Source: Lachnospiraceae bacterium
GTDB lineage: Bacteria; Bacillota_A; Clostridia; Lachnospirales; Lachnospiraceae
Assembly: GCA_009911175.1 (NCBI GenBank)
Contig: QXWX01000001.1
Location: 124,001-188,000 of the forward strand
Length of the DNA stretch: 64,000 nucleotides
Reading direction: 5' to 3'
In this document: piece after piece, positions 37,386 through 52,504 of the stretch
Layout: each line of letters starts with the position of its first letter
Position numbering within the stretch: position 1 is the stretch's first letter
Notes under the pieces: model-generated
What the model saw: the letters and a program-made list of their open reading frames with translations, nothing else
Told to the model about the DNA's origin: nothing
Databases searched by the model: none
Position numbers and translations under genes: made by a program

Positions 37386-38420
37386 TTAATGCTTCGCATA
37401 TACAACCTCTTTCTTGATTCCAGGCGCTGCGGACGGCTGTCCGTCATTGGGAACATCCTCGATCACCCGGTTGCTGAGAGTACCAACCTCCATTGCGTCC
37501 GCAAAGTTGATCGGATGATTGCGCATATGCACCTTCATCAATTCGAACAGCCGGAGGGTGGGGCGCCTGGATTCGAACACACCTGAGATATCGATGCATT
37601 TGCAGCCGGTCTGTACGGCCAGTGCTTTCAGACGCTGGTTGATCTTGAATGCGGCCGGGCTCTTTGACACGATGGGTACGATATAGATGGACGTCTGCGT
37701 CTTTGTATGGATCATGTAGAGCAGCCATTCATATTTGGAAATGAAGTTGTCTACATCCACATTCTCATCCCGAATATCCACATCCCCCATATTTACAAAA
37801 ATCTTACGGGGATTTAAGTCATACAGGCACACCTTCAGATAACGTTCGATCTGGTCAATGCGTATATCCTTGACGCTTCGGTTATAAATGGGCTCTGTGA
37901 TGCGGAAAGCCTGTGCCAGCTCCCCAACCGGAAGTGAAGCAAATGTATTTGAGCCGAAAAGTACGACGCCGCCTGCTTCTGTAATACTGTTAAGTTCACG
38001 ATAAGTCTGCATTTCATCATCTCCTTGTTCATGCATGGATGGTTGGAAGGGGTCGGATGTATGGGCGTTGTCTGCAGATGCTTCTGCGATGCCTTTGTCC
38101 GTATTTCCTGTGTGTCCTGATATCTGTCTGCTCAGTTCTGCATTTGCCGCCTGCGCCTGCCTGTCGTAACGTGTGTTGATAAAGTAGACAATGACGTTGG
38201 CGGATACGACAACCAGATTTAAGAGGTACACGACCAACACATAGTTGAATCTGTGACTGTAGATCTTTGCGGAAATTCCTGCAATGTACCCCGTGATAAT
38301 AAGCAGTATAAACTGGATGCTCATGTTTCTGGCTGATCTGGCTTTGATATTCTTGGCAAGATTCATAGGCCAGGATAATCCGAAGCAGATCAGCATGGTT
38401 GACTCTAAAAGTTCGGCCAT
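37386..38420 (-). CDS. Fusion of a PQ-loop-like membrane domain with an SGNH hydrolase-like domain
   Basis: A 344-residue protein. Residues 1-85 hold three hydrophobic helices and the PQ-loop-like segment SWPMNLAKNIKARSARNMS. A polar linker follows (~90-145). Residues ~146-330 look like an SGNH/GDSL-type esterase: VVLFGSNTFASLP as block I, VNMGDVDIRDENV as the later block, and a late IDISGVFESRRPT region. The catalytic Ser is plausibly in GSNTF. The protein is divergently transcribed from a LysR gene. Membrane-bound acyl/acetyl-ester hydrolysis is conceivable; activity is not established. Confidence 0.6.
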   Translation of the reverse strand: MAELLESTMLICFGLSWPMNLAKNIKARSARNMSIQFILLIITGYIAGISAKIYSHRFNYVLVVYLLNLVVVSANVIVYFINTRYDRQAQAANAELSRQISGHTGNTDKGIAEASADNAHTSDPFQPSMHEQGDDEMQTYRELNSITEAGGVVLFGSNTFASLPVGELAQAFRITEPIYNRSVKDIRIDQIERYLKVCLYDLNPRKIFVNMGDVDIRDENVDVDNFISKYEWLLYMIHTKTQTSIYIVPIVSKSPAAFKINQRLKALAVQTGCKCIDISGVFESRRPTLRLFELMKVHMRNHPINFADAMEVGTLSNRVIEDVPNDGQPSAAPGIKKEVVYAKH

Positions 38421-39607: not shown

Positions 39608-39664
39608 TATAGGAAAATTCGGAGAAGTTTTCTATAGAATAAAAAAACGCCCTGTTCAGGCGTT
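39608..39664 (-). terminator. Terminator of the fumarate operon, with an adjacent second hairpin
   Basis: On the minus strand AACGCC, a 7-base loop, GGCGTT (39646-39664) is followed by seven T. Next to it CTATAGGAAAA pairs with TTTTCTATAG (39608-39637). A third GCGGCG/CGCCGC pairing lies near 39543-39580. The 39460-39789 gap holds these hairpins and no gene. Confidence 0.7.
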
Positions 39665-39789
39665 CCTTGCTGCAGCGGTCTATCGGGAAACAGGATTCGC
39701 ACACGTTCTATTGACGGTTCTTCGGAGACCCGCCATATATTTGTGTGGATTCCGTTTTTTCCCGACACCCCTTTGCAGCGGTTCTTATT

Positions 39790-41001
39790 TTAGCAGAATA
39801 GTATAATCAACTGCGACGCCAGTACAACCGCGATCAGCGCGATCGGATATGTCGCCGCATAGGCAGCCGCGATATCTTCCGTACCGGCCATATTGATCAG
39901 TGTTCCAAGGGCCGGTGTACTCGTCATACCTCCGGTCAGTGAACCAAGGTTATTGAGCAGGGGCAGCTTCAATACATTCTTTGCCACAATGAATCCGATG
40001 ATCATCGGAAGGATCGTCATGATCGCTCCGTAAAGGAAATATACCGGTTCGAAATACTGTACGAACTTGGCACCGCCGGATACTCCCGCTCCGATCAGAA
40101 ACAGCATCAGTCCCAGCTCCCTCAGCATCTTCAAGGTGGAATTTTTCGGAACGATGGAAATCTTTCCGGCATGTCCGTAGTGTCCGAATACGAGGGCTGT
40201 CAGAAGGCAGCCGCCTGTCGTGGTCAGCGAAAAGTTCCTGTAGCTGAGGCTTCCCACCAGGATTCCAATGATCGCCGCAAGTGAAAACGCGAAGAATCCG
40301 AATTCATCCACTTCTGTCAGGATCAGACTGCTCTTTTTCCTGCCCTCGCCTTCTTTTGCGGTGATCTTTGCCACTTCTTCATTCATGTTTGCTTTCAGCA
40401 TCTTCGGAACGATCTGCACAAACAGAACCACACCGACCACGCCGAACAGATAGGAGATCCCATACCCTACGGATACCAGCGCTTCCAGATCCAAACCGAC
40501 AGCCGCTTTGGATGCGGAAAATGCAGGCGTACTGGTCAGCGCTCCGGAAAGCAGGCCCACCATGATCGCCCGGAACTGCTCATGTTCCAGGTCCGTAAAG
40601 TTGGAACCGATCAGAATACATGCGACGCAGGTAACCGCCGCCGCAAAAATGATCACAGCACCCAGCAGAACGTAGGATTTGAAGTTCCGTTTCAGGTTTC
40701 CAAAAAAATTCGGCCCCGCAATAAAGCCGACAGAGGTCACGAAAAAGATGAGCCCCATATTTTCCACGATTTTCAGCGCGTCCGTAGCAAAGGTCGTCTC
40801 TCCCGCCATCAGGTTGTCTGACAGTTTTGTGTACAGCAGGCATCCGTAAACCAGAGCAATGATAAATACCCCGGCCGTTCCAAGGTTGATTCCTTTTACG
40901 GTGATCTTACCGATCGCATACCCGATGGCCGCAATCGCAAAGACCGAAAACGTAAGAAATACTACAGCCTTTACTGCCAATATTCCTCCAAATAACTCCA
41001 T
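39790..41001 (-). CDS. AspT/AAEX-family exchanger, probably for C4-dicarboxylates
   Basis: A 403-residue membrane protein with ten to eleven helices in two halves. The duplicated family signature is seen as LLSGALTSTPAF and LTGGMTSTPALGTL, which characterise the aspartate:alanine exchanger (AAEX, YidE/YbjL) family. The cytoplasmic TrkA-C domains of many relatives are absent; only a ~35-residue charged loop separates the halves. As last gene of the malate-fumarate-succinate operon it is a good candidate for succinate export or fumarate/malate uptake. Family firm; substrate inferred from context. Confidence 0.78.
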   Translation of the reverse strand: MELFGGILAVKAVVFLTFSVFAIAAIGYAIGKITVKGINLGTAGVFIIALVYGCLLYTKLSDNLMAGETTFATDALKIVENMGLIFFVTSVGFIAGPNFFGNLKRNFKSYVLLGAVIIFAAAVTCVACILIGSNFTDLEHEQFRAIMVGLLSGALTSTPAFSASKAAVGLDLEALVSVGYGISYLFGVVGVVLFVQIVPKMLKANMNEEVAKITAKEGEGRKKSSLILTEVDEFGFFAFSLAAIIGILVGSLSYRNFSLTTTGGCLLTALVFGHYGHAGKISIVPKNSTLKMLRELGLMLFLIGAGVSGGAKFVQYFEPVYFLYGAIMTILPMIIGFIVAKNVLKLPLLNNLGSLTGGMTSTPALGTLINMAGTEDIAAAYAATYPIALIAVVLASQLIILFC

Positions 41002-41110
41002 GTCTTATGACTCCCTTCTGTAAATACAGAACATCCGCTGCCAGTGCAGAACTGCATTTCTTCCTGACTCATACAGCATCCCATCGGCAGCCGATCTGCA
41101 TACTATGGTA

Positions 41111-41141
41111 AAAGACAGCAAGCCGCCAGAGGCCCGCTGTC
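41111..41141 (-). terminator. Possible leaky terminator between fumarase and exchanger genes
   Basis: On the minus strand GACAGC pairs with GCTGTC, with inner GCC/GGC pairs, followed by TTTTAC. It stands in the 158-base gap between the two genes and may reduce exchanger expression. Confidence 0.45.
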
Positions 41142-41159
41142 TGTATGAATGTCCTACAA

Positions 41160-41723
41160 TTACTCTTTATGCTCTTCCAGATAAGCGGCTCTTCCGCTCT
41201 CGTACAGGTTATTTCCCTCGCTGTCAATGATGACAACCAGCGGCATATCCTCAACATAAAGCTTTCTCAGCGCTTCCGCGCCCAGATCTTCAAAAGCGAT
41301 CAGTTCTGCCTTTTTGATACATTTTGCAAGCAGAGCTCCCGCTCCGCCGATGGCTCCGAAGTAAACGCCGGAATACTTCTTCATCGCGTCGATGACTTCC
41401 GGAAGGCGTGCGCCTTTTCCGATCATTCCGCGCGCGCCTACGGACATCATAGTCGGCGCGTAAGCATCCATACGCCCGCTGGTGGTCGGTCCTGCAGAAC
41501 CGATGACCTGGCCCGGTTTTGCCGGAGTCGGCCCTACATAGTAGATGGTCGCATCTTTCGGATCAAATGGAATCTCTTCGCCTTTTGCCAGAGCCTCGCA
41601 CATACGCTTATGGCCTGCGTCCCGGGACGTATAGATCGTTCCTGTCACAAGAACGCTGTCTCCTGCGTGCAGTGTCTTTGCAAGTTCCTCTGTCAATGGT
41701 AATGTAATCTTTTTTGCTGCCAT
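41160..41723 (-). CDS. Class I fumarate hydratase, beta subunit
   Basis: A 187-residue C-terminal-type subunit of the two-subunit iron-sulfur fumarase. Recognisable blocks are GDSVLVTGTIYTSRDAGHKR, GPTPAKPGQVIGSAGPTTSGRMD and GMIGKGARL, shared with the C-terminal half of single-chain FumA and the beta chain of L-tartrate dehydratase. It starts 1 base after the alpha-subunit stop. Fumarase is favoured over tartrate dehydratase because malate dehydrogenase and fumarate reductase are in the same operon. Confidence 0.85.
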   Translation of the reverse strand: MAAKKITLPLTEELAKTLHAGDSVLVTGTIYTSRDAGHKRMCEALAKGEEIPFDPKDATIYYVGPTPAKPGQVIGSAGPTTSGRMDAYAPTMMSVGARGMIGKGARLPEVIDAMKKYSGVYFGAIGGAGALLAKCIKKAELIAFEDLGAEALRKLYVEDMPLVVIIDSEGNNLYESGRAAYLEEHKE

Positions 41724-41724
41724 C

Positions 41725-42567
41725 TTAGATCACCTCCGATTTATGACGTGTTACATGGCAGTTGATATTTACTGCACATGGCATGCCTGCAATATGGGTT
41801 GGCAATGTCTCAATGTTTAATCCGATCGCTGTCGTCTTTCCGCCGAAGCCCTGAGGTCCGATGCCCAGCTTGTTGACTTTTTCCAGCATCTCTTTTTCCA
41901 GGTCTGCATAGAAGGGATCCGGATTGGAGGAATCAATGGGCCGCATCAGCGCTTTTTTCGCCAGAAGGGCCGCCTTGTCAAAGGTTCCGCCGATTCCAAC
42001 GCCGACTACCATCGGCGGGCACGGGTTGGGTCCTGCGGTCTCCACAACCTCCAGGATGAAGTCCTTGATCCCCTGCAGGCCGTGAGACGGCTTAAACATA
42101 CGGATCTGGCTCATGTTCTCGCTTCCGAAGCCCTTCGGTCCAACGGTGATCTTGATCTGCTCGCCGGGAACGATCTCTGTGTAGAGCATTGCCGGTGTGT
42201 TGTCTCCTGTGTTTCCGCGGCGGACCGGGTCTTTTACAACGGATTTCCGAAGATATCCCTTGTCATAGCCCCGGCGTACACCCTCGTCAACCGCTTCCGC
42301 AAGGCTGCCGCCTGTCAGATGCACATCCTGGCCGATCTCTAAAAATACACATGCCATGCCGGTATCCTGGCAGATCGGCACGCACTCGCTGTCTGCGATC
42401 TCAAAATTCTCGATGATATTATCCAGGACGCCCTTCGCGATCTCTCCGTCCTCGCAGGCACGGCAGTCTTTGATCGCGCATTTCACGTCTTCCGGAAGAT
42501 GCTCATTTGCTTCGATACAAAGTTTTTCTACGACTTCCGTAATCTTGCTTACTTCTATCTCACGCAT
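41725..42567 (-). CDS. Class I fumarate hydratase, alpha subunit
   Basis: A 280-residue oxygen-sensitive [4Fe-4S] subunit that, with the beta chain, interconverts malate and fumarate. Blocks: VPICQDTGMACVF with one cluster-ligand Cys, RRGNTGDNTPAML, GSENMSQIRMFKPSHG, and GPNPCPPMVVGVGIGGT with another ligand Cys. A further Cys near the C-terminus (MPCAVNINCHVTRH) completes a plausible three-ligand set. Normal length. AAGGAG precedes the start. Confidence 0.87.
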   Translation of the reverse strand: MREIEVSKITEVVEKLCIEANEHLPEDVKCAIKDCRACEDGEIAKGVLDNIIENFEIADSECVPICQDTGMACVFLEIGQDVHLTGGSLAEAVDEGVRRGYDKGYLRKSVVKDPVRRGNTGDNTPAMLYTEIVPGEQIKITVGPKGFGSENMSQIRMFKPSHGLQGIKDFILEVVETAGPNPCPPMVVGVGIGGTFDKAALLAKKALMRPIDSSNPDPFYADLEKEMLEKVNKLGIGPQGFGGKTTAIGLNIETLPTHIAGMPCAVNINCHVTRHKSEVI

Positions 42568-42635
42568 AACTTAATCTCCTTCTTTATATTCACGGCGGGG
42601 CTGCCGGAAACTGATTTTTCACACTCGAAATATTG

Positions 42636-42688
42636 CCACCTGTACGGTTGGATGCTCTAAAGAGCCTCCAACCGACTCGTACAGGTGG
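42636..42688 (-). promoter_or_regulatory. Long hairpin between fumarate reductase and fumarase genes
   Basis: CCACCTGTACG (42636-42646) pairs perfectly with CGTACAGGTGG (42678-42688), and inside it GTTGGA/TCCAAC and GCTCT/AGAGC pair as well. There is no T tract on the minus strand, so mRNA stabilisation or processing is more likely than termination. It fills most of the 167-base gap inside the operon. Confidence 0.5.
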
Positions 42689-42734
42689 AAATATCATCCC
42701 TTCCCGGCACCCCCGTTCCCAATACTGCTATCGA

Positions 42735-44345
42735 TTATCTCTCATGGCGCGCATACTTCGGAAGAAGCTTCGGTGATACCTCTCCTGTCGCTGCAGAAGC
42801 GCCCTTTAATTCCTCGTCATAGCTTGCCACATGGTCAAGATTCATAGCGCCAAGTTCAACTTCTTTTGCCTTTGCCGCTGCTTTCTTACCTGCGTTCCGG
42901 CCGAATACGATGACATCAAGAAGGGAATTGCCCATCAGTCTGTTTGTTCCGTGGATTCCGCCTGCTGCCTCTCCTGCTGCCAGAAGATTCGGAATGTTCT
43001 TTGCGAAGCCTTCTCCGTCGATCTCAAGGCCGCCGTTCTGATAATGCAGTGTCGGATAGATCAGGATCGGAACTTTTCTCATATCGATTCCATACTTCAT
43101 GTACATACGGAACATGGCAGGGATTCTCTTTTCGATCGTTCCCTCTCCTCCGAGAATCTCGATCATCGGTGTATCAAGCCATACGCCGTGCTCTCCGTCT
43201 GGCGTCTCTACGCCGCGGCCTTCTCTGCATTCACGGATTACACCTGAAGCATTGACGTCGCGGGTCTCCAGAGGATGAATATAAGCTTCCCCATTTGCAT
43301 TGACAAGCTGTGCGCCGACAGAACGAACCTTCTCTGTCACAAGAGCGCCCAGGATCTGCACCGGATAAGCGACGCCTGTGGGATGGTACTGGATGGAATC
43401 CTGGTACAGAAGCGGTACTCCTGCCCGGTATCCCAGTACAAGACCGTCTGCCGTTGCCCCGTAGTGGTTGGATGTGGGGAATCCCTGGTAATGCATTCTT
43501 CCCGCGCCGCCTGTTGCGATCACAACCGTCTTTGCTCTGGCAACAGAATAATCTCCTGTCTCCATATTGAGAAGAACCGCGCCTGCTGCCTGGCCTTTCT
43601 CATCTTTGATGATCTCTACCGCAGAAGTAAATTCTACCACCGGGATCTGAAGGTTCAATACCTCGTCGCGGAGTGTACGCATGATCTCTGCTCCGGAGTA
43701 GTCCTTACATGCATGCATTCTCTTTCTGGAGGTACCGCCGCCGTGGGTCGTTACCATCCGTCCGTCTGCGTCCTTGTCAAACATAACGCCCAGTTCGTTC
43801 AGCCATTTGATCGCGTCAGGCGCTTCCATTACAAGACGTTTTACCAGTTCCGGCTTTGCAGCAAAATGTCCGCCGCCGAACGCGTCCAGATAATGCTGTA
43901 CCGGAGAATCATTTTCCTTATCTGCCGCCTGGATGCCGCCTTCGGCCATCATCGTATTCGCATCGCCGATACGGAGTTTTGTCACGATCATTACATTTGC
44001 GCCTGCATTGTGCGCTTCGATGGCACAGGAGGAACCGGCGCCGCCGCCGCCGATCACAAGCACATCTACGTCATAATCCACTTTCGTAATGTCAACCTTC
44101 TCCTCCACAAGACGGCTTGTGGAGTGAAGCATTTCAGCCAGTTCAAGGGGTGCTTTTTGTCCTTTGTTCGGGCCTACTTTAATCTCTGCAAACGCATCTG
44201 GATTATAATCCGGATGAAATTCCTTCAGGAGAGCATCTTTTTCGTCAGCAGTCAGACGTCTTGGTTCTGTAGACATACGTTCTGCTCTTGTAGCCTCTAC
44301 CTTTTTGATGGATTCCATCATATTCTCTGGATATGGTGTATACAT
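42735..44345 (-). CDS. Fumarate reductase flavoprotein subunit (soluble, TfrA/FrdA-like)
   Basis: A 536-residue FAD protein. The N-terminal ~70 residues are a helical extension; the FAD fold starts at VLVIGGGGAGSSCAIEA. Active-site elements of the FrdA/SdhA/NadB family are present: THGGGTSRKRMHA, SIQYHPTGV, LVTEKVRSVGA and GTNRLMGNSLLD. The His that bears covalent FAD in membrane-bound FrdA (SHT-AAEGG) is Asn here (ANTMMAEGG), so FAD is probably non-covalent as in TfrA. ATG 44345 has GGGAGGG upstream. No membrane subunit is encoded nearby, so the enzyme is likely cytoplasmic. Confidence 0.85.
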   Translation of the reverse strand: MYTPYPENMMESIKKVEATRAERMSTEPRRLTADEKDALLKEFHPDYNPDAFAEIKVGPNKGQKAPLELAEMLHSTSRLVEEKVDITKVDYDVDVLVIGGGGAGSSCAIEAHNAGANVMIVTKLRIGDANTMMAEGGIQAADKENDSPVQHYLDAFGGGHFAAKPELVKRLVMEAPDAIKWLNELGVMFDKDADGRMVTTHGGGTSRKRMHACKDYSGAEIMRTLRDEVLNLQIPVVEFTSAVEIIKDEKGQAAGAVLLNMETGDYSVARAKTVVIATGGAGRMHYQGFPTSNHYGATADGLVLGYRAGVPLLYQDSIQYHPTGVAYPVQILGALVTEKVRSVGAQLVNANGEAYIHPLETRDVNASGVIRECREGRGVETPDGEHGVWLDTPMIEILGGEGTIEKRIPAMFRMYMKYGIDMRKVPILIYPTLHYQNGGLEIDGEGFAKNIPNLLAAGEAAGGIHGTNRLMGNSLLDVIVFGRNAGKKAAAKAKEVELGAMNLDHVASYDEELKGASAATGEVSPKLLPKYARHER

Positions 44346-44358
44346 ATTCGACCCTCCC

Positions 44359-45042
44359 CTATTTCTCAATCTCTCTTGTGTTGTAAAGTTCCTGCATCTC
44401 TTCGATCGGCTTCTGCATGATCTGCTCGATCAGGCTGTCATACTCGCCCCGGTTCACCTCGTCCACACGGTTTTTGAGATGCTCGGTCTCAGGCGCGATG
44501 TACTTACCGGTGAGACGTCTTGCTAAGAGTCCAACCATCGGATGGGAGATTCCTGCCGGACATCTTACGGAACAGCATCCGCAGCTGACACAGTCAAAGG
44601 ACTCTTCCGCGCATTTCTCAAATTCGCCCCGCTGTGCGTATGCGATATACTGCATTACATTCAGATCCTGGGTACATGCCTTCGTACATGCGTTGCATCC
44701 GATACAGCTGTAGATCTCCGGATACAGTTCCATCATAATCTGCTGGGTCGGCTTGATATCCTTGATCTCATAAGTCCTCTTATCTGTCGGGAAGAAGGGG
44801 ATACTTGCCACGTACATGCCCTCTTCTACCTGTGTCTGGCAGGCAAGGCAGGTCTTTAATTCATTTTTTCCCTTGATCCTGTAGATCGTCGCACATGCTC
44901 CGCAGAAACCATGACGGCAGCCACATCCTCTTCCCAGTGTATATCCGGCATATTCCATCGCAGTCATGATCGTAAGTTCTGCAGGTACGCTGTATTTTTT
45001 ACCGAAAAAATATACATTTACCATCTTTTCCATGTCATTCAT
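44359..45042 (-). CDS. Fumarate reductase iron-sulfur subunit
   Basis: A 227-residue protein with a [2Fe-2S] ferredoxin domain (CGCRHGFCGAC and LKTCLAC) and two ferredoxin-type motifs, CIGCNACTKAC and CVSCGCCSVRC. These are the clusters that pass electrons to the flavoprotein in FrdB/SdhB. The first motif has the full CxxCxxCxxxC for a [4Fe-4S] cluster. Unlike methanogen TfrB it lacks the C-terminal CCG domains; those are supplied here by a separate HdrB. It precedes the flavoprotein gene by 13 bases. A link from HdrB to this subunit is inferred. Confidence 0.85.
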   Translation of the reverse strand: MNDMEKMVNVYFFGKKYSVPAELTIMTAMEYAGYTLGRGCGCRHGFCGACATIYRIKGKNELKTCLACQTQVEEGMYVASIPFFPTDKRTYEIKDIKPTQQIMMELYPEIYSCIGCNACTKACTQDLNVMQYIAYAQRGEFEKCAEESFDCVSCGCCSVRCPAGISHPMVGLLARRLTGKYIAPETEHLKNRVDEVNRGEYDSLIEQIMQKPIEEMQELYNTREIEK

Positions 45043-45081
45043 GTCCTTTCTTTGATTATTTCATGTTCATCCAATCGAGCC

Positions 45082-45936
45082 TTAGTATTCATTCGGAAGT
45101 TCATCAATCTCATCATACCGGAATACCGGACCGTCCTTGCACACGTACTTGGAACCGATGTTGCAGCGTCCGCACTTTCCGACTCCGCACTTCATCCGGA
45201 GCTCCAGTGTCGTATAGACCTGCTCTGTGGTAAATCCAAGTTCCTTTAAGCCTGCAAGCACGAACTTGATCATGATCGGAGGTCCGCACACGAGCGCTGT
45301 CTTGTCCGTATCAAATCCAAGCTCCTTCACATAATTCGGAACAAATCCAACATGGCCGTCCCAGCCTTCCTGCTCACGGTCGATGGTCAGGTATACATTC
45401 ACGCCCTCTGCCTTCATCCAGACTTCCTGGATCTCCTTGAGCTGAACCAGGTCGTCCGCAGAGCGGGAACCATAGACAATATCTACGGTACCGTAATTCG
45501 CACGGTTATCCAGCACGTAATTGATCACGGAACGGAGGGGCGCAAGGCCGATACCGCCTGCGATAAACAGAAGGTTCTTGCCTTTTAACTCTGTCTCCAC
45601 CGGAAATGAGTTGCCGTAGGGGCCGCGGACTGTGATCTCGTCGCCCACCTCCAGGCTGTGGAGATAATCTGTCAGGATTCCGCATTTCTTAATACTGAAT
45701 TCCTGATATTCCTTGTTGGTCGGCGAAGAAGTAATGGAAAACATACCTTCGCTGATACCCGGCGCACAGACCATGGCGCACTGTCCCGGCATATGCTCGA
45801 ACAGCTTGCCGCCCTCCGGCGCATTGACGCGGAACGTCTTTACGTCCGGGGTCTCTTCCCGGATATCCGTGATCACGCCTACCTGGGGGATCAGAGTATC
45901 TAATGTATAATTCTTATGACATGTACATTCACCCAT
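45082..45936 (-). CDS. FlxA-like NAD(H):FAD oxidoreductase subunit
   Basis: A 284-residue protein of the ferredoxin-NADP reductase fold (AsrB/PyrK/HydG group). FAD-binding block GMFSITSSPT, NAD-binding block FIAGGIGLAPLRS and ALVCGPPIMI, and a C-terminal [2Fe-2S] motif CGVGKCGRCN with a later Cys in KYVCKDGPVF. In Desulfovibrio, FlxA delivers electrons from NADH to the Flx-Hdr complex; the same role is likely here. It abuts the FlxB-like gene upstream. Confidence 0.82.
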   Translation of the reverse strand: MGECTCHKNYTLDTLIPQVGVITDIREETPDVKTFRVNAPEGGKLFEHMPGQCAMVCAPGISEGMFSITSSPTNKEYQEFSIKKCGILTDYLHSLEVGDEITVRGPYGNSFPVETELKGKNLLFIAGGIGLAPLRSVINYVLDNRANYGTVDIVYGSRSADDLVQLKEIQEVWMKAEGVNVYLTIDREQEGWDGHVGFVPNYVKELGFDTDKTALVCGPPIMIKFVLAGLKELGFTTEQVYTTLELRMKCGVGKCGRCNIGSKYVCKDGPVFRYDEIDELPNEY

Positions 45937-46967
45937 TATTTTTCACCTCCCTGATTCTGAAATGCTTTCACGACCTTCACGATGTTCAGGGCGGACGGAC
46001 ATTTTTCTACGCAGCGTCCGCATCCTACGCAGGAATACATCCCGTCGTTGTTGGCCGGATAGTATACCAGCTTGTGCATGAACCGCTGGCGGAACCGCTG
46101 CATCTGGCTGGTGCGGTTGTTGCCGTGGGCCATCATCGTAAAGTCGGAATACATACAGGAATCCCAGCATCTGTAACGGGAAACGCTGTTTCCTGCGGTG
46201 TAGTCCTTGATATCATAGCACTGGCAGGTCGGGCACACAAACGTACAGGTGCCGCATGCCAGACATGGCTTGTATAATTCTTCCCAGATTGGGGAGTCAA
46301 ATTTTTCCGTAAGGGCATCCCCGTTCCATCCTTCCAGAGAAAGGTTCATATAGGGGAGCTTTTCCACGATTTTGTGGATTGCTTCCTTCTCCGCTTCAAC
46401 GGCTGCTTCGTCAGCGTCCGAGAGCAGTTCCTTCACCGCCGCTGTCAGCGTCTCGCCTTTTTCGGTCAGCGCTTTCCAGAAAAGATCCTCGCCTACCGTC
46501 CAGACTGCTACGTCCGACGCCGGCTGAGCCGCATCCACGCCGAACACCTTGCAGAAGCAGGTCTCTTCCGGTTCGTGGCAGGCCATGGCAACGATGGTTC
46601 CGTGATCCCTTCTTGCCGCATAAAAGGTATCGACAGGATCTGTAAGGAATACGTTGTCCAGTACCTCGATCCCCTTCACGTCGCAGGCTTTCATGCCGAA
46701 TACGACAAAGTCCTGCTCTTTCAGCGTCTGAGGCTCTACGGACATCTTCTTTCCTTCTTTTTTTACGGTGTAAAGACCTTCGCTCTGCGGGAAAAATGCA
46801 TCTTTCGCTGATTTTACGGTCTTCAATGTATCCAGATCCACCTCTGCGTCCTCAGTCCATGCCGCAAAATTGGTCTGCCCGGCGGTTTTCACCGGAAGAT
46901 ACAGTTCCTGGCTATCCGCGATTAAATGGAATAATGCGGAAAGATCTTTTTTTGCTATCTTATACAT
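45936..46967 (-). CDS. FlxB-like (AsrA-type) iron-sulfur protein
   Basis: A 343-residue protein resembling anaerobic sulfite reductase subunit A. The C-terminal part carries two [4Fe-4S] ferredoxin motifs, CLACGTCTFVCPTCQC and CVGCGRCVEKCP. Additional cysteines occur in ACHEPEETCFC and KACDVKG. The N-terminal ~200 residues are the usual AsrA/FlxB domain. It lies between the FlxA- and FlxC-like genes with almost no spacing. Probably relays electrons from the FlxA flavin towards FlxC and FlxD. Confidence 0.78.
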   Translation of the reverse strand: MYKIAKKDLSALFHLIADSQELYLPVKTAGQTNFAAWTEDAEVDLDTLKTVKSAKDAFFPQSEGLYTVKKEGKKMSVEPQTLKEQDFVVFGMKACDVKGIEVLDNVFLTDPVDTFYAARRDHGTIVAMACHEPEETCFCKVFGVDAAQPASDVAVWTVGEDLFWKALTEKGETLTAAVKELLSDADEAAVEAEKEAIHKIVEKLPYMNLSLEGWNGDALTEKFDSPIWEELYKPCLACGTCTFVCPTCQCYDIKDYTAGNSVSRYRCWDSCMYSDFTMMAHGNNRTSQMQRFRQRFMHKLVYYPANNDGMYSCVGCGRCVEKCPSALNIVKVVKAFQNQGGEK

Positions 46968-46970
46968 ACA

Positions 46971-47945
46971 TTATCCCCTCTTTCCTACAATACTTGGTTC
47001 CGCGTCTTCAAACGTATAGTTCGTAAGCGGTGCTTTTGATTCGGTATCTTCCCCTGCCTGGTATTCGCCGTACAGCTCGTCAATGTCCTTGATAAACTTG
47101 CGGTTGAACAGGTGGAGCGGGATTCCCTGGGGACATACGCGGCTGCATTCTCCGCAGTCTGTACATCTTCCTGCCACATGGAACGCGCGGATGATATGGA
47201 ACATCTTTTCCTCAAAGGTATCCACATTGGCTTTCTGGGAGCTGTCAAACTTGTTGCTGTCGAATACACACTTGCGGCAGCTGCAGGCCGGACATGCATT
47301 TCTGCAGGCATTGCAGCGGATACACTTGCTCAATTCGCTCTGGAAGAATGCAAACTTCTCCTCCGGGCTCATAGCCTCGATCCTTGCCACTTCGTCAAAC
47401 CGTTCCCCATCCTTGGTTTCCTTGGACTCTCCGATCAGCTCATCGTAGATCATGTGGTCCTTTCCCTTGCAGACATGGCATCTTTCCAGCATAGCGTCTG
47501 CGTAGGCGCAGGTCTTTTCTCCATAGATGGTATGGACCTTAAGGGTATCTGCAGCGTCGGTGATCTCCGCGCCTTCAATACTCTCGATTCCCTTGATCCC
47601 CTGCTTTTTGATCCGTTCGATATCCAGTTTTCCTTTGCATCCCACACCTATGATATAGGCTTTGTCCCTGTCTACGCGGTGTTCCTTGATCAACTGGTTG
47701 AAGCTGTATGTATCGCATGGCTTTAAGCAAACCAATGTCTTTCCTTCCAGCTTGGATGCCTCGATCATATATTTGCTCAGATTGGCCCCGCAGAATCCGT
47801 TATACACGAAATCCTCCAGAGCTTCCGCTGTCTCAAAGTAAGCCGGCTCCGGGTTATAAGGCAAGTCTCCGGCTTTCCAGCCGAGAACCCGTGCCACAGT
47901 CCCATCTGCCAGCAGTTCTTTTGCACGGTTTACTACTTCTTGCAT
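46971..47945 (-). CDS. FlxC-like iron-sulfur protein
   Basis: A 324-residue protein with two ferredoxin-type motifs, CIRCNACRNACPACSCRKC and CTDCGECSRVCP, in its C-terminal half. The N-terminal half has extra cysteines (NGFCGAN, LKPCDTYSF, GVGCKGK, CHVCKGK) that recall the FrhB/HydB-like domain of coenzyme-F420-type and FlxC proteins. It overlaps the MvhD/FlxD-like gene by 13 bases. It is an electron-transfer subunit; its exact equivalence to FlxC is judged by gene order and cysteine pattern only. Confidence 0.72.
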   Translation of the reverse strand: MQEVVNRAKELLADGTVARVLGWKAGDLPYNPEPAYFETAEALEDFVYNGFCGANLSKYMIEASKLEGKTLVCLKPCDTYSFNQLIKEHRVDRDKAYIIGVGCKGKLDIERIKKQGIKGIESIEGAEITDAADTLKVHTIYGEKTCAYADAMLERCHVCKGKDHMIYDELIGESKETKDGERFDEVARIEAMSPEEKFAFFQSELSKCIRCNACRNACPACSCRKCVFDSNKFDSSQKANVDTFEEKMFHIIRAFHVAGRCTDCGECSRVCPQGIPLHLFNRKFIKDIDELYGEYQAGEDTESKAPLTNYTFEDAEPSIVGKRG

Positions 47946-48373
47946 CTTAAATCCCCCAATCTTACATTTTCGCCAAGAGAATAGATCTTCTCTACAAAAC
48001 TGTTCATTGTCTCAGAGAACTTCACACCCTCTGCCGCAGATACCCACTCTACGCGTGTACGGCCGTTTTCCACACCGATGTAATCCAACATGGAGAACAA
48101 CAGGGTCATACGCCTTCTTGCGTAATAGTTGCCGGTACTGTAATGGCAGTCTCCCGGGTGGCATCCGCACATGATCACTCCGTCCGCGCCTTTCTCGAAT
48201 GCCCTTAAGATGAACATCGGATTCACACGGCAGGAACAGGGAACGCGGATGATCTTTACGTCAGCAGGATAGGACAGACGGCTGCTTCCTGCCAGGTCAG
48301 CTCCTGCATAACTGCACCAGTTACAGCAGAACGCTACAATTTTCGGTTTGAATTCTTTATTTTCTAACGACAT
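47933..48373 (-). CDS. MvhD/FlxD-like [2Fe-2S] adaptor protein
   Basis: A 146-residue protein of the hydrogenase-delta (MvhD) family. It has the family cysteines FCCNWCSYAGADLAG, VPCSCRVN and GCHPGDCHY, ending with the GxNY-type helix. MvhD links the electron donor (hydrogenase or Flx) to HdrA. It overlaps hdrA by 10 bases. No hydrogenase genes are present, so NADH through the Flx-like proteins is the likely donor. Confidence 0.87.
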   Translation of the reverse strand: MSLENKEFKPKIVAFCCNWCSYAGADLAGSSRLSYPADVKIIRVPCSCRVNPMFILRAFEKGADGVIMCGCHPGDCHYSTGNYYARRRMTLLFSMLDYIGVENGRTRVEWVSAAEGVKFSETMNSFVEKIYSLGENVRLGDLRCKK

Positions 48374-50352
48374 ATTGCATCCACCTCCGCTATAATCTGT
48401 CTATTTGAGAATCCCTGCAGATCCATGGCTCCTGACGGACATGCAACGGTACATGCGCCGCAGCCCTGGCAGAGTGCGTTGTTTACCACTGCGATACGGC
48501 GGGTCTCACGGATTCCGTGGTCATTGACTTCTTTATCCTCATAGGTGATCGCACCGTATGGGCATACGTTCTCACAGGTGGAGCATCCGTTGCAGAGCAG
48601 GATATCTGCCTGTGCGGTACACGGATTGGTCATCAGCTTATCCTTCGCAAGAAGCCCGATCGCCTTCACCGCTGCAGCGCCTGCCTGGGCAACGGTCTCC
48701 GGAATATCCTTGGGGCCCTGGCATACGCCGGACAGGAAGATACCCGCTGTGGGAGATTCTACCGGACGCAGCTTGGCATGTGCTTCGGTGAGGAAGTTGT
48801 TGGTGTCGATACTTGCGGTCAGCATGGTTGCGATCTTGCGCACATCCGGATTCGGTTCGATGGCTGTTGCCAGAACCACCATATCCGCTTCTTTCAGGAT
48901 CTGACGGTTGTCCAGAAGGTCAGAGCCCTGAACCAACAGCTTGCCGTCGGGCTGGGGAATGACCTTTCCGACCTGGCCCTTGATGTAATTCACTCCATAC
49001 TGTTCCACCGCTCTTCTGTAGAACTCGTCAAAGTTCTTGCCCGGTGTACGAACATCGATATAGAATACGGTCACATTCACATCCGGATATTTGTCGCGGA
49101 TCAGCATCGCATGCTTTGCGGTGTACATACAGCAGATCTTGGAGCAGTACGGCTTTCCTCTGTCGTCGGAACAGCGGCTTCCCACACACTGGATAAATAC
49201 AATCTCTTTCGGTGCTTTTCCGTCGGAAAGTCTCTCCAGATGGCCGTGGGTCGGTCCAGCCGCGTTCATCACACGCTCTAATTCCAGGGAGGTGATGACG
49301 TCTTTGCTCTGGCTGTACGCATACTCGTCATATTTTTCCAGGTTGATGGTGTCAAAGCCGGTGGCAACTACGATAGCGCCGTACTTCTCTGTTACGATCT
49401 CATCCTTCTGTTCGTAATCAATAGCTCCTGCCTGGCAAACCTTGGAACAGAGTCCGCATTTGCCGGTCTTGAACTTGATGCAGGCCTCCCGGTCGATCAC
49501 CGGAACATTCGGGATCGCCTGTGCAAACGGCGTGTAGATCGCGCTTCTTGTATTCAGGCCCCGGTTAAATTCGCTGGGTGCCTTCTTGGACGGACATTTT
49601 TCCTGGCAGACGCCGCAGCCCGTACATTTGTCCATATCCACGCTTCTTGCCTTCTTGCGGATGTCTACCGTGAAGTCGCCTACGAAACCGCTCACTTTGT
49701 CTACTTCACTGTATGTATAGATCTTGATCTTGTCATGGGCCGCCGCTTCCACCATCTTCGGTGTCAGGATACATGCGGAACAGTCCAGCGTGGGGAATGT
49801 CTTGTCCAGCTGTGACATCCTTCCGCCGATGCTGGGTGTCTTCTCCACAATGTCCACTTCATAGCCCGCGTCCGCGATGTCCAGAGCGGTCTGGATTCCT
49901 GCGATACCGCCGCCGATCACAAGCGCTCTCTTGGTCACGCGGCTCTCTCCTGCCTGGAGCGGCGCATTTAAGTTCACCTTCGCAACCGCCGCGCGCATCA
50001 GGATGACTGCCTTCTTTGTTCCTTCCTCCATATCCTTGTGAATCCAGGAACAATGCTCACGGATGTTGGCGATCTCCACCATATACGGATTCAGTCCGGC
50101 ACGCTCCGCTGCCTTTCTGAATGTGGTTTCATGCATACGCGGGGAGCAGGAACATACTACAACTCCTGTCAGCCCTTTTTCATGGATGGCCGCCGCGATC
50201 TTCGCCTGTCCCGCCTCGGAACACATATACTGGTAGTCTTCGGCATGGACAACGCCCGGCTCCATCTGTGCCATATCTACGACTTTTTTTACATCTACCG
50301 TTGCGGCGATATTGCTTCCGCAGTGGCAGACAAATACTCCTATCCTCTGCAC
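48364..50352 (-). CDS. hdrA: HdrA-like flavin- and iron-sulfur subunit
   Basis: A 662-residue protein. N-terminal part: VFVCHCGSNIA and VVCSCSPRMHE; FAD-binding fold from LVIGGGIAGIQTALD; the HdrA-specific LDCSACILTPKM. Four ferredoxin motifs follow: CTGCGVCQEKCP and CGLCSKVCQ in the middle, CNGCSTCENVCP and CQGCGACTVACP at the C-terminus. In methanogens HdrA holds the flavin that bifurcates electrons between ferredoxin and the heterodisulfide side. All key cysteines appear intact and the length is normal. Bifurcation here is inferred from family knowledge. Confidence 0.88.
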   Translation of the reverse strand: MQRIGVFVCHCGSNIAATVDVKKVVDMAQMEPGVVHAEDYQYMCSEAGQAKIAAAIHEKGLTGVVVCSCSPRMHETTFRKAAERAGLNPYMVEIANIREHCSWIHKDMEEGTKKAVILMRAAVAKVNLNAPLQAGESRVTKRALVIGGGIAGIQTALDIADAGYEVDIVEKTPSIGGRMSQLDKTFPTLDCSACILTPKMVEAAAHDKIKIYTYSEVDKVSGFVGDFTVDIRKKARSVDMDKCTGCGVCQEKCPSKKAPSEFNRGLNTRSAIYTPFAQAIPNVPVIDREACIKFKTGKCGLCSKVCQAGAIDYEQKDEIVTEKYGAIVVATGFDTINLEKYDEYAYSQSKDVITSLELERVMNAAGPTHGHLERLSDGKAPKEIVFIQCVGSRCSDDRGKPYCSKICCMYTAKHAMLIRDKYPDVNVTVFYIDVRTPGKNFDEFYRRAVEQYGVNYIKGQVGKVIPQPDGKLLVQGSDLLDNRQILKEADMVVLATAIEPNPDVRKIATMLTASIDTNNFLTEAHAKLRPVESPTAGIFLSGVCQGPKDIPETVAQAGAAAVKAIGLLAKDKLMTNPCTAQADILLCNGCSTCENVCPYGAITYEDKEVNDHGIRETRRIAVVNNALCQGCGACTVACPSGAMDLQGFSNRQIIAEVDAICR

Positions 50353-50359
50353 TTAGACC

Positions 50360-50749
50360 TCACCTCCTATATCTTCTGAATGCACTGACTAATAACTGCT
50401 GCGGAAGTTCCGGGTCCAGTAATTCCGGAATTTCGTTTGGCGACAGATAATCCTTGTCTTTCTGACGCACTACGACCTGTCTTGCCGCGTCGATCAGTTT
50501 TCCCGGCTTCACATCGCGGGGGCATCTCTCCACACACGCGAAGCAGGAAAGACATTTCCAGAGCGACTTGGAATTTACCAGGCTTTCAATATCTTCATTG
50601 ACCACATAGGATACAAATTGATGCGGCTTGATATCCATCTCGTTATATGACGGACAGGATGCAGAGCATTTCCCGCATTTCATGCATTTCAACGGATTGA
50701 CGCCGCTGATCTCCTTGATCAGTTCGGCCTGTTTCTTTTCAGAACTCAT
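50360..50749 (-). CDS. hdrC: HdrC-like iron-sulfur subunit
   Basis: A 129-residue protein with two [4Fe-4S] motifs, CMKCGKCSASCP and CLSCFACVERCP, as in HdrC. It passes electrons from HdrA to HdrB. It overlaps the hdrB stop by 4 bases, and hdrA starts 7 bases later. No membrane anchor (no HdrE-like part), which fits the soluble HdrABC type. Confidence 0.87.
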   Translation of the reverse strand: MSSEKKQAELIKEISGVNPLKCMKCGKCSASCPSYNEMDIKPHQFVSYVVNEDIESLVNSKSLWKCLSCFACVERCPRDVKPGKLIDAARQVVVRQKDKDYLSPNEIPELLDPELPQQLLVSAFRRYRR

Positions 50750-51540
50750 GACTTCTGCACCTCCTCCTTTACGCCAAGAGCTTCTGCCAGCAGCTCCGTG
50801 AAGTAAACCACCGGGAGCTTCCCGCTGCTCTTGTTCAGATTATACAGACATAACGGACAGGCCGTGATCAGCATCTCCGCGCCGAAGCCTTCCGCACTGT
50901 CCATAATCTTCTCACACATCGTTTTGGACATATCCTTTTCCTTCAGGGAAATGTAGCCGCCGCAGCACTCGTTGCGGTACGGGTAAACCACCGGCTCCGC
51001 TCCGATTGCGCGGATAAAGTCTTCAATGATCTTCGGATTCTCCGGATCGTCAAAAGCTAAAAGGCTGCTCGGACGCAGAAGCAGGCATCCATAGTAAGCG
51101 CCGATCTTCTTTCCTGTCAGAGGATTGGTCACCTTTTTCTTCAGCTCGTCGAATCCAACCTTATCACGAAGAACCTCTAAGAAATGAAGGACCTCTGTTT
51201 CACCTGCATAAGGCTCTTCAAGCTCCATATAGTTGTTTGCCCTGGTACGGATGTCCTCCACGTTCTTCATGTCGTCATTGACACGCTTGATCACATGATG
51301 GCATGCGGAACACAGGGTTACAAGACTCTGTCCTTTTACCTTTGCCTCATTCAGGGCGCGGACAGAAGACAGCTTCGTAGCGATCTCGTCAGTACCAAGC
51401 GGATAGACGCCGCCGCAGCACTGCCAGTCTTCAATCTCTTCCAGTTCAAATCCCAGTGCTTTTGCCGAAGCCCTTGCATAAGCATCCAGATCCTTTGCCT
51501 TTGTTCTCAAAGTGCATCCCGGATAATAACTGTACTTCAT
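50746..51540 (-). CDS. hdrB: HdrB-like subunit with two CCG domains
   Basis: A 264-residue protein starting MKYSYYPGCT (ATG 51540, AAAGGA upstream). Both cysteine-rich CCG motifs are complete: C9, C41-C42, C77 and C80, and C152, C192-C193, C228 and C231. In methanogen HdrB these bind two non-cubane [4Fe-4S] clusters that reduce CoM-S-S-CoB. Clostridia lack that heterodisulfide, so the acceptor here must differ; the neighbouring fumarate reductase is the obvious candidate. The longer in-frame start overlaps the mdh gene and is less likely. Confidence 0.87.
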   Translation of the reverse strand: MKYSYYPGCTLRTKAKDLDAYARASAKALGFELEEIEDWQCCGGVYPLGTDEIATKLSSVRALNEAKVKGQSLVTLCSACHHVIKRVNDDMKNVEDIRTRANNYMELEEPYAGETEVLHFLEVLRDKVGFDELKKKVTNPLTGKKIGAYYGCLLLRPSSLLAFDDPENPKIIEDFIRAIGAEPVVYPYRNECCGGYISLKEKDMSKTMCEKIMDSAEGFGAEMLITACPLCLYNLNKSSGKLPVVYFTELLAEALGVKEEVQKS

Positions 51541-51568
51541 AGTTCTCGCTGTCCTTTCTTTATTAAAA

Positions 51569-52504
51569 TTATAATTCAATCTGAGCAATGACTGCTTTCA
51601 ATGCCTCCGCACTGATTTTGAGTTTTTCTACTTCCTCATCGGTAAGCGTCATCGGAATCTTGCTGTGGATTCCTTTGGGTCCAACCAATGCCAGCGTACT
51701 CAGGCAGACATCTTCAATGCCGTATTCTCCGTGCATCATGGAAGATACGGTAGATACGGATTCAGAAGCAGCCATCAGGATGCTGCATAATTTGCACACG
51801 CCTCTTGTTACCGCATAGAAGGTAGCTCCCTTATTTGCAATGATCTTGCCGCCGGATTTCTGTACATATGTAAGCATCGCTTCCTTATCCAGCTTCTCAA
51901 AGCCCGGCATCATCTCATAGTAATCGTCTACGTTGACGCCTGCGATCCTTGCCGCTGACCATGGAATAAAGGAGGTATCGCCATGCTCGCCGAATACATA
52001 TGCATGGATATTTCTCTGTGCAACTTTAAAATGTTCGGAAAGACCGCAGCGAAGACGCGCGGAATCCAGAATTGTTCCGGAACCGATAATCTGATTCTCC
52101 GGAAGCCCCGAAATCTTGGTAAATACATAGGTCATGATATCAACCGGATTGCTTACGATGATATAAAGCGCCTTGGGAGCCGCTTTTACAATCTCCGGTG
52201 TGATCTGCTTTAAGATATTAACGTTGGTCTGGGTCAGCTCAATTCTTGTCTGTCCTGGTTTACGCGCGATTCCGGAAGTAATGATCACGATATCGGAATC
52301 TTTTGCGTCCTCATACTCGCCCGCAACAATAGAAACAGGATCTCTGAAGCATGTTCCCTGCTCGATATCCATCACTTCGCCTTCTACCTTTTCCTTGTTG
52401 ATGTCGATCATGACGATCTCGGACGCGATGTCCTCTCCAGACAATGTGTACGCAATTGTTGAGCCTACGCTTCCGGCTCCAATGATTGTGATTTTGCTGC
52501 TCAT
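51569..52504 (-). CDS. mdh: LDH-like malate dehydrogenase
   Basis: A 311-residue NAD-dependent enzyme of the lactate/malate dehydrogenase family. It has the NAD fold ITIIGAGSVGSTIAYTL, the active-site His in AYVFGEHGDTS (His174) and catalytic loop GIARKPGQTR. The residue that decides substrate choice (Gln102 in lactate, Arg102 in malate dehydrogenases) is Arg81 here, matching B. subtilis Mdh (RKPG) rather than lactate enzymes (QKPG). Malate is also what the fumarase downstream needs. It is first in the operon with its own promoter. Automated annotation may well call it L-lactate dehydrogenase. Confidence 0.8.
   Translation of the reverse strand: MSSKITIIGAGSVGSTIAYTLSGEDIASEIVMIDINKEKVEGEVMDIEQGTCFRDPVSIVAGEYEDAKDSDIVIITSGIARKPGQTRIELTQTNVNILKQITPEIVKAAPKALYIIVSNPVDIMTYVFTKISGLPENQIIGSGTILDSARLRCGLSEHFKVAQRNIHAYVFGEHGDTSFIPWSAARIAGVNVDDYYEMMPGFEKLDKEAMLTYVQKSGGKIIANKGATFYAVTRGVCKLCSILMAASESVSTVSSMMHGEYGIEDVCLSTLALVGPKGIHSKIPMTLTDEEVEKLKISAEALKAVIAQIEL

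Follow-up and report, generated by a model that had tools for sequence, protein, structure and literature searches.

FlxABCD-HdrABC, attributed to Ramos and colleagues in 2015, is reportedly an NADH dehydrogenase/heterodisulfide reductase, and the thiol:fumarate reductase of methanogens, TfrAB, contains in TfrB a fused CCG domain. In a "succinate operon" of Pseudoclostridium thermosuccinogenes, fumarate hydratase and seven Flx-Hdr genes stand together with two genes of fumarate reductase and one for a putative succinate carrier; the article that describes it, which cites a 2019 preprint by Koendjbiharie and van Kranenburg, proposes that fumarate reduction is coupled to the reduction of ferredoxin and reports an approximately 4-fold upregulation under CO2 limitation that was not significant for every subunit (PMC7282089). 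We analyzed a 64,000-nucleotide stretch of a Lachnospiraceae bacterium (assembly GCA_009911175.1, contig QXWX01000001.1, positions 124,001 to 188,000; hereafter the window), the minus strand of which carries, from 52504 to 39790, a run of 13 genes with heterodisulfide reductase (hdr), flx, fumarate reductase (frd) and fumarase components. We consider it very probable that the product of this operon is a soluble fumarate reductase that depends on NADH and bifurcates electrons at a flavin, made together with its own substrate supply.

Comparison with the closest described systems revealed similarities as well as clear differences. As in FlxABCD-HdrABC, all seven hdrABC and flxABCD subunits are present and contiguous; however, the window HdrB belongs to a clade apart from the sampled flx-linked HdrBs without frd, HdrC is shorter, frdAB is attached, and relatives in the class sample described below carry no DsrC over the model cut-off. 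With methanogen TfrAB the locus shares a CCG-type cluster protein paired with FrdB and FrdA, and TfrA was the best NCBIfam model for FrdA, but the score of 335.5 bits was under the cut-off of 718, and the CCG part of the window is a separate HdrB. The 8-methylmenaquinol:fumarate reductase SdhABE also places a CCG protein, SdhE, beside a flavoprotein/iron-sulfur pair, but its donor is a quinol, and FrdA scored 221.2 bits with the corresponding SdhA equivalog model, under the cut-off of 1100. The methanogen HdrABC-MvhAGD complex (5odc) matched HdrA over residues 3-660 with 690 bits and HdrB with 101 bits, whereas its donor is H2 and its acceptor heterodisulfide, in contrast to the NADH and fumarate proposed for the window. 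Quinol:fumarate reductase and complex II share the active-site residues with the window enzyme, but not the covalent FAD histidine, the FrdB 3Fe-4S pattern or the SdhC anchor.

The P. thermosuccinogenes operon, which we could liken to the window by gene content from its description and not by sequences, likewise holds fumarase, seven Flx-Hdr genes, two frd genes and a carrier in one run, with hdr-flx followed by frd and then by the carrier; it differs in that fumarase heads the run, whereas in the window mdh does so and fumAB stands between frdA and the carrier. Among gammaproteobacteria, tfrAB is interspersed with flxABCD-hdrABC in tubeworm symbionts and Thioflavicoccus, and a complex that also includes korABCD was suggested (PMC6315080). 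This is the same partnership and the same suggestion of a complex, known here from the description and not from sequences, but in an autotrophic reverse TCA setting with korABCD. In a further source, tfrAB expression diverged from the rest of the flx-hdr cluster (PMC11636981). The original prediction knew of no described enzyme of this composition; this claim of novelty was dropped because of the like operon in PMC7282089 and the tfrAB idea in PMC6315080. The composition and the bifurcation idea are already in print, and what is added here is the wide distribution and the apparently dedicated HdrB and HdrC.

All 13 genes of the original prediction were found to be open at its coordinates, with domains agreeing with its names, in the order mdh, hdrB, hdrC, hdrA, flxD, flxC, flxB, flxA, frdB, frdA, fumA, fumB and a carrier gene of the AspT family. 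Tight packing with many overlaps of 1-13 bases had been described; with corrected starts, four of the 12 junctions overlap (hdrB/hdrC by 4 bp, hdrA/flxD by 10, flxD/flxC by 13 and flxB/flxA by 1), and the other eight are gaps, six of them of 1-39 bp and two wider (167 bp between frdA and fumA, 158 bp between fumB and the carrier gene). The corrections concern two genes. The HdrB frame that opens at TTG 51588 overlaps mdh by 20 bp, and its match to the solved HdrB begins at residue 17, which is ATG 51540, the likelier start; for FrdA the probable start is ATG 44345 and not TTG 44369, from which the frame is also open.

The seven Hdr and Flx proteins were assigned by domain and structure matches. 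HdrA (48364..50352), a flavoprotein and the candidate bifurcation site, covers positions 1-640 of the HdrA2 model, and the MvhD-like FlxD (47933..48373; FlpD domain, PF02662) continues the same model at 642-773. HdrB (50746..51540; PF02754) has two complete noncubane-cluster CCG motifs, and the adjoining HdrC (50360..50749) is a short form of 129 residues with 4Fe-4S dicluster domains. FlxC (46971..47945; Fer4 dicluster) is an iron-sulfur protein similar to the C-terminal region of those formate dehydrogenase beta chains whose structures were solved with Hdr complexes, and FlxB (45936..46967; Fer4_22) is an iron-sulfur protein with similarity to sulfhydrogenase beta. FlxA (45082..45936) would be the entry subunit, with FAD/NAD(P)H-binding and 2Fe-2S domains (PF00175, PF00970, PF10418).

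To follow the operon across genomes, we used a class sample of 391 and a phylum sample of 299 genomes, both drawn round genome G001, which is in both; genome-wide statements refer to these relatives. G001 is the sampled genome nearest to the window (42% of the window's sampled 31-letter words, identical FrdB). A protein search found 7243 FrdB relatives at E <= 0.001 among 7301 candidates; at E <= 1e-20, FrdB was present in 54 class-sample and 30 phylum-sample genomes, and the surroundings of all 83 places (G001 being common to both) were read with trimmed reading-frame starts. In the class sample, flxA lay directly upstream of frdB at 53 of 54 places, frdA followed frdB at all 53 that could be judged, and the full hdrBCA-flxDCBA block preceded frdB at 41 of the 42 places with enough sequence, shorter contigs showing only part of it. 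The single miss for flxA and for the block, L113, has the order frdBA-hdrBCA-flxDCBA. Additionally, among named genomes, namely the best 80 of at least 542 FrdB relatives, mostly gut-derived Clostridia by their titles and partly repeating class-sample genomes, flxA preceded frdB at 76 of 76 loci and the full seven-gene block was present at all 59 that were long enough. The synteny across Clostridia that the original prediction wished to see searched is thus present, and this association of genes is not a matter of chance. Judged by sequence, the operon block is widespread in gut Clostridia.

The 29 further places of the phylum sample revealed rearranged and reduced forms. Four have frdBA-hdrBCA-flxDCBA (L116, L118, L122, L123) and one hdrCBA-flxDCBA-frdBA (L133). 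At three, hdrC-hdrB-frdB stands with no hdrA or flx alongside (L117, L124, L130), L124 being a 3.8 kb contig that ends just past frdB, with frdA beyond its end. Eight have two hdrA genes, flxD and a weak flxC without flxA or flxB (L125, L131, L132, L134-L138); on the short contig L136, one hdrA and neither hdrB nor hdrC was seen. The hdrA genes in this group encode about 650 and 1050-1490 residues, and in L125 and L131 a sucC-like gene was noticed by eye downstream of frdA. The remaining thirteen have frdBA without adjoining hdr or flx (L114, L115, L119-L121, L126-L129, L139-L142), three of them (L114, L121, L140) with less than 2.4 kb of upstream sequence. In L119 and L139, inspection by eye placed frdBA downstream of ResB/ResC-like membrane genes and an iron-sulfur protein of about 160 residues, with cytochrome c-like genes in L139, and this context suggests a membrane-linked donor for the same FrdBA. 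FrdA was read as two frames in L147 (Sporofaciens musculi) and L219, as was HdrA in L061 and L152, probably through sequencing frameshifts.

FrdB and HdrB also occurred together at the level of whole genomes. With HdrB counted at E <= 1e-30, 52 class-sample genomes had both proteins, two had FrdB only, two HdrB only and 335 neither (54 carriers of each). The exceptions are incomplete genomes: G072 and G380, with FrdB only, are 75 and 88% complete, and G033 and G225, with HdrB only, 62 and 77%. Fisher's test gave p = 9e-60, a value that is not a chance probability because the genomes are related. The original prediction had named as adverse any finding that frd and hdr-flx genes never occur together in related genomes; this outcome was not seen, although nine of the 30 FrdB genomes of the phylum sample lack this type of HdrB. 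At E <= 1e-15, one HdrB match was found in 51 of 53 class genomes and none in two. In the phylum sample, some HdrB at E <= 1e-30 was present in 121 of 299 genomes, with a gap in scores between 213.5 and 197.8 bits, and all 21 genomes with an HdrB above this gap carry FrdB.

To compare the HdrB linked to frd with other HdrBs, we built a tree of 52 rows, comprising every fifth class-type row, the window and all other fetched HdrBs, with a midpoint root; some non-frd HdrBs of the FrdB-carrying genomes were left out. The 31 frd-type rows, from five linked arrangements and from unlinked operons, formed one clade with support of 100/99, and a further 20 HdrB rows, each from a genome that carries FrdB, fell on the opposite side of the branch. 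One HdrB from an frd locus, L125_16332, stood apart from the clade, but it is a second copy; the tree did not include the higher-scoring HdrB of that genome, which is located at the margin of the fetched stretch. HdrC divided in the same manner, with 125-143 residues in the frd-type groups (exceptions, 90 in L098 at a contig start and 202 in L125) and 177-235 in the other groups (one exception of 128). Long HdrC was also found beside HdrB, HdrA and flx without frd, for example in L235, L239 and L240, which indicates that the split is not simply one of having flx. HdrB and HdrC thus appear to be specialized for FrdB. Columns that might divide frd-type HdrB from the others were few (T26, V99 and Y212, in the numbering of the long frame, are examples) and unconvincing as a mechanism.

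These data bear on an explanation in which one operon holds two machines: Flx-Hdr would bifurcate electrons from NADH to ferredoxin and a cellular disulfide, of a DsrC-like protein or a small thiol, and FrdAB would oxidize the resulting thiol, as methanogen TfrAB does. The canonical HdrB is a disulfide reducer, and the window HdrB retains all ten cluster cysteines. In contrast to TfrB, however, FrdB has no CCG domain, and the hdrCB-frdBA modules without adjoining hdrA fall in the same HdrB clade. DsrC was over cut-off in none of the 54 class relatives, with one weak match under it (G180), a figure that covers DsrC and not small thiols. Both the direct and the DsrC-like route are named for a vent symbiont in PMC11636981. 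We regard the two-machine explanation as unlikely. We lean, by a small margin over doubt, to the view that this HdrB/HdrC lineage abandoned the reduction of disulfides and now serves as a fixed route for electrons to a soluble, complex II-like FrdBA. HdrBC-FrdBA would then be a plug-in acceptor module with varied donors, namely HdrA-FlxABCD with NADH as in the window, a double-HdrA unit that has a distant FlxC but lacks FlxA and FlxB, or nothing in the same operon (hdrCB-frdBA), and in gut Clostridia without quinones this module would be the usual means of reducing fumarate and generating reduced ferredoxin.

FrdB (44359..45042, 227 residues) has the cysteine ligands of one 2Fe-2S and two complete 4Fe-4S clusters, and the eight dicluster cysteines were invariant in 15 of 15 aligned sequences. 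Quinol enzymes have a 3Fe-4S pattern in this subunit; that pattern was absent here, the full CxxCxxCxxxC being present in all 15. The domain search confirmed that FrdB lacks the CCG part, with no match in Pfam, and that this part is the separate HdrB, as the original prediction had it. A FrdB-HdrB fusion was considered as proof of contact and was found at none of the 83 places among open frames of up to 320 residues, although the protein search was limited to a range of lengths that long fusions exceed.

FrdA (42735..44345; FAD_binding_2) is predicted to be the fumarate reductase flavoprotein. H321, E338, R341, R362, H434 and R469 were invariant in 39 of 39 aligned sequences, in columns that we take, from our own alignment, to be the catalytic sites of E. 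coli SdhA. The arginine of an REGRG motif was also considered as the catalytic arginine, but it varies in the family alignment, and the RD arginine R362 matches instead. In distant relatives the motif patterns behaved less regularly: L140-L142 gave no match to the last pattern, and the first had placed L128 and L141 wrongly. Asn130 is invariant where covalent-FAD enzymes have histidine. The AlphaFold2 model of FrdA was usable (pLDDT 80) and showed a complex II fold, with E. coli FrdA the nearest in a PDB search, whose table is without aligned ranges and therefore silent on the N-terminal extension. This extension, residues 1-90 (44076..44345), is conserved and helical, with pLDDT block means of 76-95; none of the listed matches to solved flavoproteins starts before residue 75. 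None of the 13 operon genes encodes a membrane anchor, and SdhC (PF01127) was found in none of 53 class relatives; FrdC/FrdD-type anchors were not searched. With regard to quinones, MenD was over cut-off in none of 53 class relatives (under cut-off in 10, including G001 with 164.6 bits against 244) and MqnC in none of 54 (weak matches under cut-off in 46). Among 27 phylum-sample genomes, SdhC was present in eight and MenD over cut-off in one (G423).

From the gene content, linkage, HdrB/HdrC subfamily and cluster and active-site motifs that we observed, we infer a single complex. In this complex, NADH would reduce FlxA, and FlxB, FlxC and FlxD would relay the electrons to the flavin of HdrA, which would divide the pair: one electron would go to ferredoxin, while the second would travel by way of the short HdrC and the noncubane clusters in the dedicated HdrB directly to FrdB and on to FrdA, where fumarate would be reduced to succinate. 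The net reaction would be 2 NADH + fumarate + oxidized ferredoxin -> 2 NAD+ + succinate + reduced ferredoxin. With published midpoints of +33 mV for fumarate and -320 mV for NADH (PMC5861303) and of -400 to -500 mV for ferredoxin (PMC12773636), we calculated about -33 to -53 kJ/mol, which is ample for bifurcation. The linkage, the co-occurrence, the HdrB counts, the HdrB clade and the lack of over-cut-off MqnC and DsrC together favor the reading with NADH in and fumarate and ferredoxin out, in which HdrB hands electrons to a FrdB devoid of a CCG part.

The same enzyme could be reversible, and in an opposite role reduced ferredoxin would drive succinate oxidation by confurcation, feeding NADH; in other lineages, unlinked frdBA was noticed by eye to have fumAB and either malic enzyme or sucC-like genes as neighbors, which would suit succinate oxidation there. 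The window operon, however, encodes with mdh and fumarase the reductive branch, plus a carrier, and Blautia luti, which is related to two operon carriers (L174, L175), produces succinate and has fumarate reductase activity that was measured in extracts (PMC12773636). We consider the opposite role highly improbable for the window.

Several observations weigh against the proposed bifurcating fumarate reductase. Nine of the 30 phylum-sample FrdB genomes have no HdrB above the score gap (in one of them, G638, the contig with frdB is 11 kb long), and donors of another kind can therefore serve this FrdAB. The same nine genomes would suit an ordinary soluble FrdAB fed by ferredoxin, or by NADH via a diaphorase, with hdr-flx merely balancing redox pools nearby. 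Against such an arrangement stand the near one-to-one co-occurrence in the class, the single HdrB clade limited to FrdB carriers in the phylum sample and the persistence of linkage through changes of gene order, and we give it very little probability. Returning to the bifurcating enzyme, five of the thirteen genomes with unlinked frdBA (G401, G572, G596, G620, G480) have a separate hdrBCA-flx operon elsewhere (L223-L227; the L224 listing ends at flxB, and flxD was uncalled in L225 and L226). The ten cluster cysteines were kept in 31 of 31 frd-type HdrB rows, the window included, and also in 17 of 17 others, so they cannot tell a conduit from a disulfide reductase. The weak MenD, MqnC and DsrC matches under cut-off in class relatives count in the same direction. 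The AlphaFold2 model of FrdB, with a mean pLDDT of 54, was too poor for use. A report of the purified enzyme was not found in the open-licence literature, nor an enzyme assay. Finally, in D. alaskensis the Hdr/flox operons are separate from a menaquinol Frd, and Hdr/flox-1 was important for the fermentation of pyruvate according to one study but not according to another (PMC4215793); co-presence alone is therefore no proof of one machine.

The outer genes of the operon would supply fumarate and remove the product. Mdh (51569..52504; Ldh_1_N/Ldh_1_C), a malate dehydrogenase for oxaloacetate + NADH -> malate that is upstream in many, not all, relatives, would together with fumarase convert oxaloacetate to fumarate; the class I fumarase alpha (fumA, 41725..42567; NF004885) and beta (fumB, 41160..41723; NF005310) scored 419 and 292 bits against cut-offs of 276 and 238. 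In L242, a class II fumarase-like gene was noticed by eye between mdh and hdrB (1398-2771); other loci, mostly without fumAB after frdA, have at this point a gap of about 1.4 kb or a frame of 454-459 residues, which may be a class II fumarase. The AspT-family carrier (39790..41001, 403 residues; PF06826), a gene frequent in relatives' operons, has two Asp-Al_Ex stretches and no other Pfam family, is shorter than the 562-position Asp_Ala_antiprt model and is a candidate succinate/dicarboxylate exporter or exchanger that would probably export succinate. About 120 bp past it, a pattern scan found a terminator-like stem-loop with a T run (39642..39668, minus strand). The region had 18 terminator-like stems against 12.7 in shuffles, and a promoter scan found 14 sites against 14.3, with no excess; neither scan is therefore strong evidence, and the stem is no proof of function. 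Farther downstream, at 37389-38420 on the same strand, a 344-residue protein appeared by eye to combine a membrane part resembling SemiSWEET/PQ-loop proteins with an SGNH-hydrolase-like part after it; it had no Pfam match at 0.001.

Succinate is a major gut metabolite, and the operon bears on how quinone-free Clostridia reduce fumarate and what they gain by it. If the proposed reaction is true, each succinate would yield reduced ferredoxin, from which Rnf can build up an ion gradient. RnfC was over cut-off in 48 of 80 FrdB genomes, G001 among them, so reduced ferredoxin would need other outlets in many. A 2026 study of the gut acetogen B. luti used a plain NADH-dependent fumarate reductase in one ATP balance, and "hdr" and "heterodisulfide" are absent from its main text (PMC12773636). 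Because two other Blautia species carry the operon, the ATP balances of B. luti may need revising if it carries the operon too.

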